Origin: Bacteroidota bacterium
GTDB taxonomy: Bacteria > Bacteroidota > Ignavibacteria > Kryptoniales > JAKASW01
DNA: 64,000 nucleotides
Assembly: GCA_021825585.1 (NCBI GenBank)
Contig: JAKAGT010000004.1
Span: 62,001-126,000 of the forward strand
Reading direction: 5' to 3'
The position numbers and the translations under genes were made by a program. Below, piece by piece: positions 19,603-36,793 of the stretch. Under the pieces are notes generated by a model, which ran no database searches, was not told the origin of the DNA, and worked only from the letters and a program-made list of their open reading frames with translations. Each line of letters starts with the position of its first letter. Position 1 is the first letter of the stretch.

Positions 19603-20979
19603 ATGATTCAGAGAACCTATCTGCCGTCAATTAGAAAATTCTCCACGGGCAGATCCACGAAAGCACTCTATTGGCTGGCAGCCTTAAGCGTGCTGATAGT
19701 CTTTTCAACCTCAACGGTGCATGCTACGCCAAGCTACGCGCGCCAGACAAATCTGGCCTGCAACGCTTGTCACTATACATATCCGGAGTTAACTCCGTTT
19801 GGCAGGCTCTTTAAATTGAACGGGTACACAATGACAGGCATTCCGGCCCTTCAATCGGCTCACAAGGAACATACGGATCTCAAAATCCCTGAAGTACTCC
19901 CGCTCTCGGCGATGGTGCTCACTTCGTACAATTCGGTGAACAAGGCAGTGTCGGGAACTTCACAGAGCTTTGCCGAATTACCCCAGCAGCTGAGTGTCTT
20001 CGCTTCCGGCGAAGTAACTCCTAACATCGGCACCTTCGTGCAGATCACCTACGATCCGACGTCCGGCACATTCGGCATGGATAACACCGACATCAGATAC
20101 GCCAATCATGCTATTGTCGGTTCCAGAGATTTACTATACGGCCTGACCTTGAACAACAATCCGACCGTGCAGGATGTATGGAATTCGACCCCGGCATGGG
20201 GCTTCCCGTTCGTTTCGTCAGGGGGAGCTCCTACTCCCACCGCCAGCACGATGATCGAAGGCGCCTTGGCCGGAAACGTCGCAGGACTCGGCGCTTATGC
20301 GCTTTACAACGATCTCGTCTATGGCGAAATAAGTCTCTACGGCTCCACTCCGCAGGGCGTTTCATATCCGCCGGACGGGACATGGAGTGAAACCATCAAG
20401 GGTGCCGCTCCATACTGGAGACTCGCGCTGCAGCACGATTGGGGCACCGATTATCTGGAAGTCGGCACGTACGGTATGTCCGCCAGCCTTTTCCCCACAG
20501 GCATTACAGGGAGCACGGATACGTATACCGACGTTGCATTCGACGCGCAGTACGAGAAACATCTGGGTGGAGGCAGTCTGATTGCCCACACGACTTACAT
20601 CATAGAGAACCAAAACCTCGATGCGACTTATGCCGCCGGCGGCTCTGCGTCTCCTTCGAATAAATTGAACACATTCAAGGTGGATTGCAGCTACAATTTC
20701 CCCGCGGATGTCGCACTCACGCTGGGTTATTTGGCGACCAGCGGAACAACCGACGCGGTCCTGTATGCTCCTGCAGCGGTCGCCGGAAGCTTCAGCGGTT
20801 CCCCGAACAGCAGCGCAGTAACGGCCCAGTTCACTTACATCCCCTGGTGGAACACTCAGTTTGCAGTACAGTACGTCGCCTACAACAAGTTTAACGGCGG
20901 GAGCACCAACTATGACGGCTCAGGCAGAAACGCGTCGGATAATAATACACTGTATCTATCCGGATGGCTACTGTTCTAA
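19603..20979 (+). CDS. Cyc2-like monohaem cytochrome fused to outer-membrane beta-barrel
   Basis: 458 residues. The start is set by AAGGAGG at 19591-19597. A long signal peptide ends near residue 45 (STSTVHA). One haem c site, C53-N-A-C56-H57, follows in ARQTNLACNACH, and then the phrase PELTPFGRLFKLNGYTM. The remaining 390 residues alternate polar and hydrophobic residues and end in an aromatic strand (LYLSGWLLF), as in porins. The pattern ARQT-CxxCH-P-L-FGR-FK-GYTM matches the haem region of Cyc2-type fused cytochrome-porins, which pass electrons across the outer membrane in Fe(II) oxidisers. Similar uncharacterised cytochrome-porins also exist, so Fe(II) oxidation is only a hypothesis. Downstream genes encode a bc complex. 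Confidence 0.75.
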   Translation: MIQRTYLPSIRKFSTGRSTKALYWLAALSVLIVFSTSTVHATPSYARQTNLACNACHYTYPELTPFGRLFKLNGYTMTGIPALQSAHKEHTDLKIPEVLPLSAMVLTSYNSVNKAVSGTSQSFAELPQQLSVFASGEVTPNIGTFVQITYDPTSGTFGMDNTDIRYANHAIVGSRDLLYGLTLNNNPTVQDVWNSTPAWGFPFVSSGGAPTPTASTMIEGALAGNVAGLGAYALYNDLVYGEISLYGSTPQGVSYPPDGTWSETIKGAAPYWRLALQHDWGTDYLEVGTYGMSASLFPTGITGSTDTYTDVAFDAQYEKHLGGGSLIAHTTYIIENQNLDATYAAGGSASPSNKLNTFKVDCSYNFPADVALTLGYLATSGTTDAVLYAPAAVAGSFSGSPNSSAVTAQFTYIPWWNTQFAVQYVAYNKFNGGSTNYDGSGRNASDNNTLYLSGWLLF

Positions 20980-33801: not shown

Positions 33802-35436
33802 TTACTTCTTGTGTGGAGCCTGTCCACCGTGATGAGGGCGTGGACCCCTGCCTTGACGTCCGGGATACTGTCTCCTCTGAGGTTGGCTCTTCTTAGGCAG
33901 CGGAAACTTCGGCTCGGGAAGCGGAGTCAAAAGATCATCTTCAGGGTAGATCGACGGGATATCCTCTCCGAGAAATTTCTTGATTGCAGGGATAGAATAA
34001 GCATCCGTCTCCGTGGCAAAACTTATCGAGGTACCGCTTGCACCCGCTCTACCCGTCCTGCCGATCCTGTGCACGTAATCTTCCGGATTCTCGGGGAGCG
34101 TAAAGTTTACTACGTGGCTGATCCCTTCGACATGAAGCCCGCGCGCGGCAACATCCGTCGCGACAAGCACCTTCGTACTTCCTGAGCGGAAATTCTCCAG
34201 GCGTTTGATTCGCCGGAGTTGCTCCACATCTCCGGAGAGGAGCGAGCAGTTTATTCCGTGCGATGAGAGATGATCTTTAAGATCTCTGGCCGTGTCCTTG
34301 CGATTCGCAAAGACTATCACTTTGTCGAGCCCTCGTTTAGTTATCAGGTTGTAAAGGATCTTGAATTTCTCGATGTCTGTGGTCAGGTAGAATACCTGCT
34401 TGATGGTCTTTACGACGACTCTCTCCGGTTCGATCTCGACGATGCTCGGCTCCGTCGTCCATCTCGAAGCTAGCCTGTTGACCTCCGGTGTCAGTGTCGC
34501 GCTGAAGAGCATGGTCTGTCGCTTCGATTTCGGCGGAGTGCTTTCGATTATCCTGCGAACGTCGGGTATGAATCCCATGTCGAGCATCCGGTCGGCCTCG
34601 TCTATTACGAGTATCTCGATCTTATCCAGATGTATATTCCCCTGCTTTTTGAAATCGAGGAGCCTGCCTGGCGTTGCGACGACGATGTCGACTTTCCCTC
34701 CCGAGAGAGTCTCCTTCTGTTCCCTGTATTCCATCCCTCCGAGAACTGCAAGCACTTTCAGGTCGGTGTACTTCATCAGCCCGTCGGCATCCTTCTTTAT
34801 TTGCATCGCAAGCTCTCTTGTGGGAGCAAGGATCAGAGCTCGCGGCGCTTTTCGATTTGGCTCTTTCAGCGGATTGTTAAGCAGCCTTGTTATAATTGCA
34901 ATGAGGAAGGCCGCAGTCTTGCCGGTTCCCGTCTGCGCGCGCCCGGCGGCATCGAGCCCTTCAAGCAGCTTCGGGAGTATTCCGGCCTGAATGGGTGTGC
35001 AATACTGGAAATTGAGGTCGGAAATAGCATGCATGACTTCGGGGGCGAGGGCAAAATCATGAAAGCGCGTCTTGTCCTCCATCGGAGGGACGACAAACCG
35101 CGAACTTTCCCAGGCCTTCCCTTCTACCGCCTTTCCTTCTGCTACTTTCCCCTCTACCGCTTTTCCTTCGACTCTCCTTGCCTCAACTTTCGGCTTATCC
35201 TGAGGACGCCTGTTGTCGGTGTAGGGTTTTCTATTATCCTTCTGATTCTTTGTGGGCTGAGGTCTTCCACCCGGCTGATTTCTCCTTCGATCTCCCTGAG
35301 GTGGCCTCCTCTGGTCTTCTCTCCGCCTGGGTTGGTGAGTCTTTTCTATCTGCCTTGGAGCTTTCTCCTCGACCTTCTTGACCTCTGGCTTTTCTTCTTT
35401 ACGGCCAAACAGCTTTTTTAATATGTTCTTTAACAA
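33802..35436 (-). CDS. rhlE: DEAD-box RNA helicase, RhlE type
   Basis: 544 residues. The helicase core starts near residue 120: Q motif (FHDFALAPEVMHAISDLNF with CTPIQ), AQTGTGKT, PTRELA, VATPGRLLD, DEAD, SATL, and HRIGRTGRAG. It unwinds RNA in ribosome assembly or decay. The unusual part is a basic, Arg/Pro/Gln-rich N-terminal extension of about 115 residues that includes a tandem VEGKA-type repeat coded by 15-bp units. The C-terminal tail is also basic (RRQYPGRQGRGPRPHHGG), as in RhlE. It stands downstream of murB on the same strand. Confidence 0.92.
   Translation of the reverse strand: MLKNILKKLFGRKEEKPEVKKVEEKAPRQIEKTHQPRRREDQRRPPQGDRRRNQPGGRPQPTKNQKDNRKPYTDNRRPQDKPKVEARRVEGKAVEGKVAEGKAVEGKAWESSRFVVPPMEDKTRFHDFALAPEVMHAISDLNFQYCTPIQAGILPKLLEGLDAAGRAQTGTGKTAAFLIAIITRLLNNPLKEPNRKAPRALILAPTRELAMQIKKDADGLMKYTDLKVLAVLGGMEYREQKETLSGGKVDIVVATPGRLLDFKKQGNIHLDKIEILVIDEADRMLDMGFIPDVRRIIESTPPKSKRQTMLFSATLTPEVNRLASRWTTEPSIVEIEPERVVVKTIKQVFYLTTDIEKFKILYNLITKRGLDKVIVFANRKDTARDLKDHLSSHGINCSLLSGDVEQLRRIKRLENFRSGSTKVLVATDVAARGLHVEGISHVVNFTLPENPEDYVHRIGRTGRAGASGTSISFATETDAYSIPAIKKFLGEDIPSIYPEDDLLTPLPEPKFPLPKKSQPQRRQYPGRQGRGPRPHHGGQAPHKK
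35113..35172. repeat. In-frame 15-bp tandem repeat in rhlE
   Basis: Four degenerate 15-bp units inside the helicase gene code for VEGKA, VEGKV, AEGKA and VEGKA in the linker before the helicase core. Because the unit is a multiple of three, copy number can vary without breaking the frame. Confidence 0.8.
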
Positions 35437-35446
35437 CTTATTCTTC

Positions 35447-36610
35447 CTATTTCTGAAACTCTGATTTAGTTACGTTTTTCCTTGTGTTTACGGATCCGCT
35501 TCGGTACGAATCCAACTTTTGCACGACAACCGCTTCCCTCTCGAGTGCGATTCCGAAGTTCTTGAATACGGCTTCCTCGATGCTTGCTGCAAGCGAGAGA
35601 AGCTCTTTCGTTGTGCCCGATTGATTTATGAGCGCAAGTGCGTGGTTCGACGAGATACCGACGCCGCCCATACGGTATCCCTTGTGAAAGCCGGAATTCT
35701 CGACTAACCATGCTGCGGGGATCTTCATTCCTTCGGCGGTCTTGAAAGAAGGCGCTTCCCCGATCTTGTTCTCCCTCAACTTGCCGAGGAGACTGTCATA
35801 CTCCGCTGCAGACAGGACAGGATTGACAAAAAACGAGCCGACAGAACGCGAGTTCGGGTCATGCTCATCCACGACCATCGACTTCCTCCGTCTCAGCGTC
35901 AGAACGGCTTCCCTGATCGTCGACAATCGACTCTCTACTTCCTCCTGCCTCCCGCTTCCCGTCTCCTTCTTTCCCGATTCGACATAATTCTTGAGCTCTG
36001 CATACTTCAAACTCGGTCGACCGTGTCTCTCAAGTCTATGCCTGACCCCGACTATGACAAAGCGGTCCTTCTCCTTCGATTTAAAAATGCTGCTGCGATA
36101 GCCGAAGCCGCATGCCTCCGGAGTGAATTCCACAATCTTAAGCGAGCTTCTGTCGATTGCCTTGACCGAGACGATTGAGTCCTTCACTTCCTGACCGTAG
36201 GCTCCGACGTTCTGAATCGGCGTCGCACCCACCGAACCGGGTATTCCGGACAGGCACTCGACTCCCGCGAGATCGTTCTCGACACACGATTTCACGAAGC
36301 TGTCCCATACCTCGCCCGCTGCTGCAGTGGCGGATGTGAAGCTGCCTTCATCTTTGAACGAGATCCCCTTCAGATCGACTTTCAGCACGAGCCCGTCGAA
36401 ACCTTCGTCCGCAAAGATAAGATTGCTCCCGCCGCCCATGATTTGAACGGGGAGCTTCTCGCTTTCGGCAAAAATCAACGCGGACCGAATCTCTTCCACC
36501 GTCTCACACCGGACGAAATACCTCGCAATTCCTCCGAGTCCAATCGTCGTGAAGTCGGCGAGCGGAATTTCCGACCTGAAATCAAGCAATCCGTTTGGTT
36601 TGACGCTCAT
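35447..36610 (-). CDS. murB: UDP-N-acetylenolpyruvoylglucosamine reductase
   Basis: Reduces UDP-GlcNAc-enolpyruvate to UDP-MurNAc with NADPH and FAD in peptidoglycan synthesis. FAD-binding motifs TTIGLGGIARYF and MGGGSNLIFADEG, the Tyr-containing CGFGYRSSIFK, and the catalytic SVGSFFVNP and C-terminal LEREAVV are all present. The start at 36610 (MSVKPNG) is preferred over a TTG at 36628. Between KYAELKNYVES and STIREAVL lies a charged extra segment (GKKETGSGRQEEV) coded by a 7-bp-period tract, so this copy is longer (387 residues) than usual. It lies in a loop and the frame is intact, so the enzyme is probably active. Confidence 0.93.
   Translation of the reverse strand: MSVKPNGLLDFRSEIPLADFTTIGLGGIARYFVRCETVEEIRSALIFAESEKLPVQIMGGGSNLIFADEGFDGLVLKVDLKGISFKDEGSFTSATAAAGEVWDSFVKSCVENDLAGVECLSGIPGSVGATPIQNVGAYGQEVKDSIVSVKAIDRSSLKIVEFTPEACGFGYRSSIFKSKEKDRFVIVGVRHRLERHGRPSLKYAELKNYVESGKKETGSGRQEEVESRLSTIREAVLTLRRRKSMVVDEHDPNSRSVGSFFVNPVLSAAEYDSLLGKLRENKIGEAPSFKTAEGMKIPAAWLVENSGFHKGYRMGGVGISSNHALALINQSGTTKELLSLAASIEEAVFKNFGIALEREAVVVQKLDSYRSGSVNTRKNVTKSEFQK
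35918..35980. repeat. 7-bp-period tract inside murB
   Basis: Nine degenerate heptamers (for example TGCCTCC then CGCTTCC on the plus strand). 63 bp is a multiple of three, so the murB frame is kept. The word resembles those at 12327 and 53312. Confidence 0.7.
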
Positions 36611-36793
36611 ACCTTTTAAGATAACCAATGCCGACCAATTCTTCCGCCCCTAAAATGTCGACGGGCATCCGACCCAATTATGGGGATTTCACTCGCAAAA
36701 CTCCAAGAGACGACGGTATGTGTTTGCGTTCCTTGACAGGGTCCCTGATAGCCTCTAATTTCGGTCAAGAGAACTAACTGAAGAGGGCTTAGG

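Follow-up and report, generated by a model that had tools for sequence, protein, structure and literature searches.

The window, by which we mean the whole 64-kb stretch of DNA that was analysed, carries on its minus strand, at 35447..36628, an open frame of 393 codons that begins with TTG and has an ATG at codon 7. It encodes a MurB: in a profile search the FAD_binding_4 and MurB_C domains score over cut-off, and there is a full-length match to the NCBIfam PRK13903 equivalog (351 bits, cut-off 231). This is the second, PRK13903-type, murB copy of the genome, which we call G000 to tell it from the other genomes of our relatives set (G001, G006 and so on). The other complete copy, 312 residues long and over cut-off for PRK13905, lies in locus L096 in the gene order murC-murB-ftsQ-ftsA-ftsZ, where the FtsQ match is weak and under cut-off; an alignment of the two MurB proteins over 356 positions shows 27% identity. 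With another murB located beside murC, ftsQ, ftsA and ftsZ, it is doubtful that the copy in the window is essential.

Inside this frame, at 35918..35980 (minus strand, residues 217-237), lies a degenerate tandem tract of nine heptamers, 63 bp in all and in frame, which encodes ESGKKETGSGRQEEVESRLST. On the coding strand the units are GAATCGG, GAAAGAA, GGAGACG, GGAAGCG, GGAGGCA, GGAGGAA, GTAGAGA, GTCGATT and GTCGACG; the division into heptads is our own, every unit begins with G, and there is a purine bias on one strand. Identity at lag 7 is 34/56 (0.61) and at lag 14 it is 26/49 (0.53), as against 0.16-0.43 at the remaining lags between 1 and 24. Not one of 20,000 dinucleotide shuffles matched the tract at lag 7, and 13 of 20,000 attained the same fraction at some lag from 4 to 24. 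The nine degenerate in-frame heptamers of the original prediction are thereby confirmed. Codon or amino-acid bias as the source of the period was also considered and is ruled out by resampling, as one of 20,000 synonymous-codon resamplings and none of 20,000 codon-order shuffles were as periodic. The 7-nt period thus exceeds what composition and codon use provide, as would be expected of a tandem heptanucleotide repeat.

The tract gives the top lag-7 signal of the window (the runner-up reaches 30/56), and it is not among the rows that Tandem Repeats Finder reports at a minimum score of 50. A separate 15-bp tandem array at 35114..35169 beats it at lags 15 and 30 and by Tandem Repeats Finder; this array encodes repeats resembling GKAVE within the linker at the N-terminus of a protein similar to DEAD-box helicases (33802..35436, minus strand). 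A short exact-unit pattern run across the window found no excess (12 matches, 9.2 expected); a degenerate heptad pattern run across the genome found 15 matches versus 7 for the reversed control, which we take as a lead only. When the tract was used as a DNA query against its own genome, the next-best match had an E value of 0.6, that is, chance level, and there are no dispersed copies.

How much of the tract is extra can be judged from the relatives. The set comprises 61 genomes including our own, 59 of which have a murB match; 28 of the 30 murB loci returned were aligned, the partial L043 and L045 being left out. From the motif LKYAEL to the motif LTLR there are 40 residues in G000 and 33 in the closest relative, G006, whose MurB protein is 83% identical; the other eleven genomes of the genus have 33, 36, 36, 37 (five genomes), 38, 40 and 51. 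The loop thus ranges over 33-51 residues in 13 genomes of the same genus, with 37 the commonest length. In five genomes that belong to other families within the class it has 37 residues, and in ten more distant genomes 29-31. The 51-residue loop, in G011 (L028), contains a short inverted repeat that differs from the heptad tracts. The flanks of the tract are conserved, as had been claimed, and the loop itself is variable in both sequence and length.

The nucleotide alignment of G000 and G006 murB has 1179 columns, 1000 of them identical, and every gap falls at 35928..35978 (minus strand), inside the tract. This is the sole length difference between the two genes: a net 21 nt, equal to three heptads (seven codons), split into four gaps (4, 3, 8 and 6) rather than three clean heptads. 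The final two heptads match native sequence (ESRLSTIRE in G000, ETDLESIRE in G006). Insertion of the whole 63 bp is therefore ruled out, the net change being +21 nt versus G006 and +9 nt versus the commonest loop length, and the claim that all 63 bp form an extra segment is not supported. Judged by these alignments, the heptad tract occupies a loop of variable length, instead of being 63 bp inserted into a loop of fixed size. The G006 loop has no lag-7 signal (13/50, p 0.68), so that growth from a pre-existing short tract is not directly seen. The only relative examined with any lag-7 signal in this loop is G005, where it is weak (40 residues; 29/71, p 0.03, uncorrected over 28 loops). The segment, in short, is not conserved, so that the case named as refuting the original prediction, a segment both conserved and free of repeats in every relative, does not apply.

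AlphaFold2, run with three sequences, gave a mean pLDDT of 53.9, too poor for firm placement of the loop; it predicts helices at 210-218 and 227-249, which flank the first part of the tract. In the alignment the solved MurBs 5jzx and 4jay have gaps at the tract position. The predicted helices together with the gaps versus 5jzx suggest, but do not prove, that the tract forms a surface loop and a helix extension.

Tracts of period 7 and 8 form a wider class in this lineage, of which the murB tract is one member. In 850 kb of G000, a strict criterion (at least 23 matches in 35 positions) found 16 lag-7 and 10 lag-8 tracts, as compared with 0, 0, 1, 0 and 1 at the control lags 4, 5, 10, 11 and 13, and with none at lags 7 and 8 in one block-shuffled copy. 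Part of this sample was pre-selected, consisting of contigs with the heptad pattern, DNA hits, or an IVP or murB match, and the pre-selected stretches hold 13 of the 16 strict lag-7 tracts; therefore the tracts are clustered, and across the genome they are sparser than the full sample would imply. The less selected 462 kb (the window and contigs C73 and C50) has three strict lag-7 tracts versus 0-1 at the control lags, and under a looser criterion (28 positions, 19 matches) seven at lag 7 and one at lag 8 versus 0-2. In 200 kb of G010, on a contig taken for its murB match, the looser criterion gives nine at lag 7 versus 0-1. Merging the criteria gives 33 tract places in the G000 sample, with units that vary from place to place; 15 are wholly enclosed by open frames of 250 codons or more, by our own count of uncurated frames, and for most of the 33 there is no clear inverted self-match within 150 bp. 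Among the places seen, a single RND transporter frame of 1197 codons on contig C32 (L083:6450-10040) has three separate period-7/8 tracts, two identical 67-bp heptad tracts (L080:16373-16439 and 19751-19817) lie 3.4 kb apart in secreted-type proteins, and one of those counted inside a frame (L078:17499-17590) probably precedes the start of TruA.

Several of these tracts lie in frame in conserved genes. In TruA of G000 (L078:16624-17640, contig C32) a loop of 46 residues consists of an inverted pair of period-8 tracts with no gene between them. Of 14 genomes with a match, nine were compared at this loop. G001, G007, G013 and G015 have 8 residues there, and the loop has 46, 34, 28 and 34 residues in G000, G004, G005 and G009, where the best periods are 8, 8, 7 and 7 and the signal was reached by 0, 2, 0 and 0 of 2000 shuffles. 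Four of the nine genomes thus have differing period-7 or period-8 tracts at one and the same loop. Pairing of the two arms is clear in G000 (score 37) and G009 (39) and not in G004 (18) or G005 (14). The 17-residue loop of G003 (L165) has a different, short inverted repeat unlike the heptad tracts. A GHMP kinase of G000 has about 65 extra residues at a place that holds just one or two in G005 and G015, with flanks identical to G000 at 74% and 61% in G005 and at 53% and 48% in G015; its in-frame period-8 tract (L089:4150-4281, contig C18) is separated by about 540 bp from an IVP gene with arms of its own. Finally, at L063:8526-9827 (contig C73) one frame of 434 codons runs from FolD through a heptad linker to a PF05635 four-helix-bundle domain. 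The same FolD-IVP fusion is found in G006, G003, G008 and G002, with a stop in G009, and unfused FolD ends near residue 295 in G001, G005 and G007. The comparison of arms at FolD is only suggestive, as several between-species scores exceed the within-species ones and the own pair of G008 scores 22. The in-frame tracts in TruA and the GHMP kinase support the original prediction as far as conserved genes are concerned; that the murB of the window is an essential gene is not supported, given the second complete MurB.

In our opinion, the most probable account of the murB tract, to which we give a probability of roughly 0.6, is that it is a short period-7 tandem tract that grew in place within a loop tolerant of length change. 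Out-of-register copying of DNA with a step of about 7 nt, by slippage or short-range template switching, would have added about three units relative to G006 (21 nt, seven codons), and point mutation would then have blurred them. Others have proposed a 7-nt slippage step linked to the polymerase, according to PMC4679880. The tract would have persisted because the frame was kept, because it lies, as predicted, at the surface with a helix on either side, and probably because its gene is one of two murBs. We infer the copying mechanism, a gain in G000 rather than a loss in G006, and the neutrality of the extra residues, all three.

A different origin is offered by the genes that encode the IVP (S23p, PF05635; TIGR02436) four-helix-bundle protein. 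This family is related to the retroelement protein Avd, as stated in PMC10053308; two of four of our proteins tested hit the Avd model, under its cut-off. PF05635 has nine matches in G000, eight of them over cut-off, and occurs in 47 of the 61 genomes of the relatives set (none in the seven f2 genomes) and in 116 of 148 genomes of a phylum set (113 over cut-off), our own genome being included in both. The genome also has three PF00078 reverse transcriptase matches, which show no link with the IVP genes.

We collected 77 IVP loci (8 from G000, 29 from relatives, 25 further ones from the phylum set, and 15 chosen from 29 plasmid records), 75 of which have full flanks; they are high-scoring, mostly one per genome and in some cases near-orthologous, hence not fully independent. 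A lag-7 tract (18/28) is present no more than 300 bp from the IVP gene in 54 of the 75, versus 7 of 75 at 900-1200 bp (Fisher p 1.3e-15). Lag-8 tracts number 19 near and 3 at 900-1200 bp, and lags 4, 5, 10, 11 and 13 give 1-4 near and 0-2 distant; with either lag 7 or lag 8 the near count is 68 of 75. When the upstream flank is compared with the reverse complement of the downstream flank, the median scores are 33 in relatives, 31.5 in G000, 31 in the phylum set and 53 on plasmids, as against 18-19 for mismatched pairs, and the own pair exceeds the 95th percentile of mismatched pairs in 20/27, 7/8, 15/25 and 11/15 loci, respectively. By eye, the arm unit is common to both arms and specific to each element, also inside G000. 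Where the arm score is at least 27 (58 of 75 loci), the strand running towards the gene is more than half purine in 46 of 58 upstream and 45 of 58 downstream arms. The association holds in this class, elsewhere in the phylum, and on plasmids of cyanobacteria, Azospirillum and Gemmatirosa. Plasmid IVP genes lie, among other places, between cas6 and cas4, between two ribonucleotide reductase genes, and between cas10 and cmr3; three heptad-armed IVP genes (L190, L192 and L197) are within CRISPR-cas clusters of cyanobacterial plasmids. As a general rule for IVP genes, inverted heptad arms were absent from the literature searched, which is weak evidence as most subscription journals are not covered by it; heptamers beside S23p appeared there only in the paper on the Coxiella intervening sequence (PMC4990558).

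The murB tract might accordingly be imagined as a solitary decayed arm or footprint of an IVP-type element, whether of arms around a PF05635 gene or of a gene-less pair as in TruA. Such arms are common around IVP genes, gene-less pairs do exist in TruA of G000 and G009, and the murB tract has the same one-strand purine bias. Lag-7 density also rises with the number of IVP copies over nine genomes, kinship ignored (Spearman 0.77, p 0.016, which using the less selected part of the G000 sample leaves unaltered; 0.66, p 0.07 when G000 is left out). On the other hand, none of the nine PF05635 matches lies in the window, and the tract has no inverted partner within 3 kb, the scores at 300, 1000 and 3000 bp being inside the range of 100 shuffles; it has neither the gene nor the second arm of such an element. 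DNA relatives of the tract are at chance level only, and G005 has no PF05635 match, yet it has heptads in TruA. That the murB tract descends from such an element is hence possible and unproven, and we regard it as unlikely.

A wider proposal appears somewhat more plausible to us, and we still offer it tentatively, as one that may well turn out wrong. IVP genes may form the centre of a small, widespread element that ends in inverted heptad arms instead of fixed terminal repeats, each element with its own unit. The intervening sequences of rRNA would be members that landed in rRNA, and the TruA pairs and perhaps the murB tract would be small derivatives that reshape conserved proteins in frame. 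The two arms could be kept alike through pairing or arm-to-arm copying. The association of arms with IVP genes is an observation; mobility and the derivation of the murB tract are part of the proposal only.

Returning to growth in place, there are two further alternatives to it, and both seem improbable to us. The extra charged segment may have been selected as a functional surface extension of the tract-bearing MurB copy. Indeed, none of the aligned homologues from the genus has fewer than 33 residues between LKYAEL and LTLR, but the segment is conserved neither in sequence nor in length (33-51 residues), and solved MurBs have gaps at its position. As for chance, a purine-rich, low-complexity loop that merely happened upon period 7 would fit the purine-rich loops without a period in several relatives (0.70 in G006), the 13 of 20,000 shuffles that attain the fraction at some lag, the selection of the segment from 64 kb and the silence of Tandem Repeats Finder, but not the complete lack of such shuffles at lag 7, the second peak at lag 14, or the similar tracts in other parts of the genome.

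Repeats of this kind have precedents. Heptanucleotide repeats are described with the unit GGGNATC in Xanthomonas and Nostoc, where they are under-represented in coding regions (PMC4692102), and with the unit TAACTGA in Beggiatoaceae (PMC4679880). Our tracts resemble them in being tandem 7-nt units, dispersed, and in one case purine- or G-rich; unlike those repeats, which have one unit per genome and are mostly intergenic, they have varied degenerate units, show period 8 as well, and in several instances lie in frame in conserved genes. Rickettsia palindromic elements are found in frame in protein genes, are about 150 bp long and have a conserved sequence (PMC10969869). The likeness is that of a repeat-derived peptide in frame in conserved proteins, with the TruA insert of G000 an inverted pair; the difference is that here only the period is common and the murB tract is not palindromic. 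The murB tract does not belong with these elements, as it has no inverted structure within 3 kb and no dispersed copies in the genome. In the intervening sequence of Coxiella 23S rRNA the inverted ends make up a 28-bp stem, and tandem heptamers precede S23p (PMC4990558); it shares with our IVP loci an S23p/PF05635 gene, inverted ends and tandem heptamers adjoining the gene. In contrast to it, our loci are not in rRNA genes, to judge by annotation or by our reading of the loci, and the murB tract has no S23p gene.

Heptanucleotide repeats have thus been noted in bacteria before, and no source for them has been agreed upon. The link between such tracts and IVP genes provides a concrete candidate element. 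The in-frame tracts in TruA, in the FolD-IVP fusion and in the GHMP kinase indicate that repeats of this kind alter conserved proteins, and the murB tract itself is a mild example of the same.
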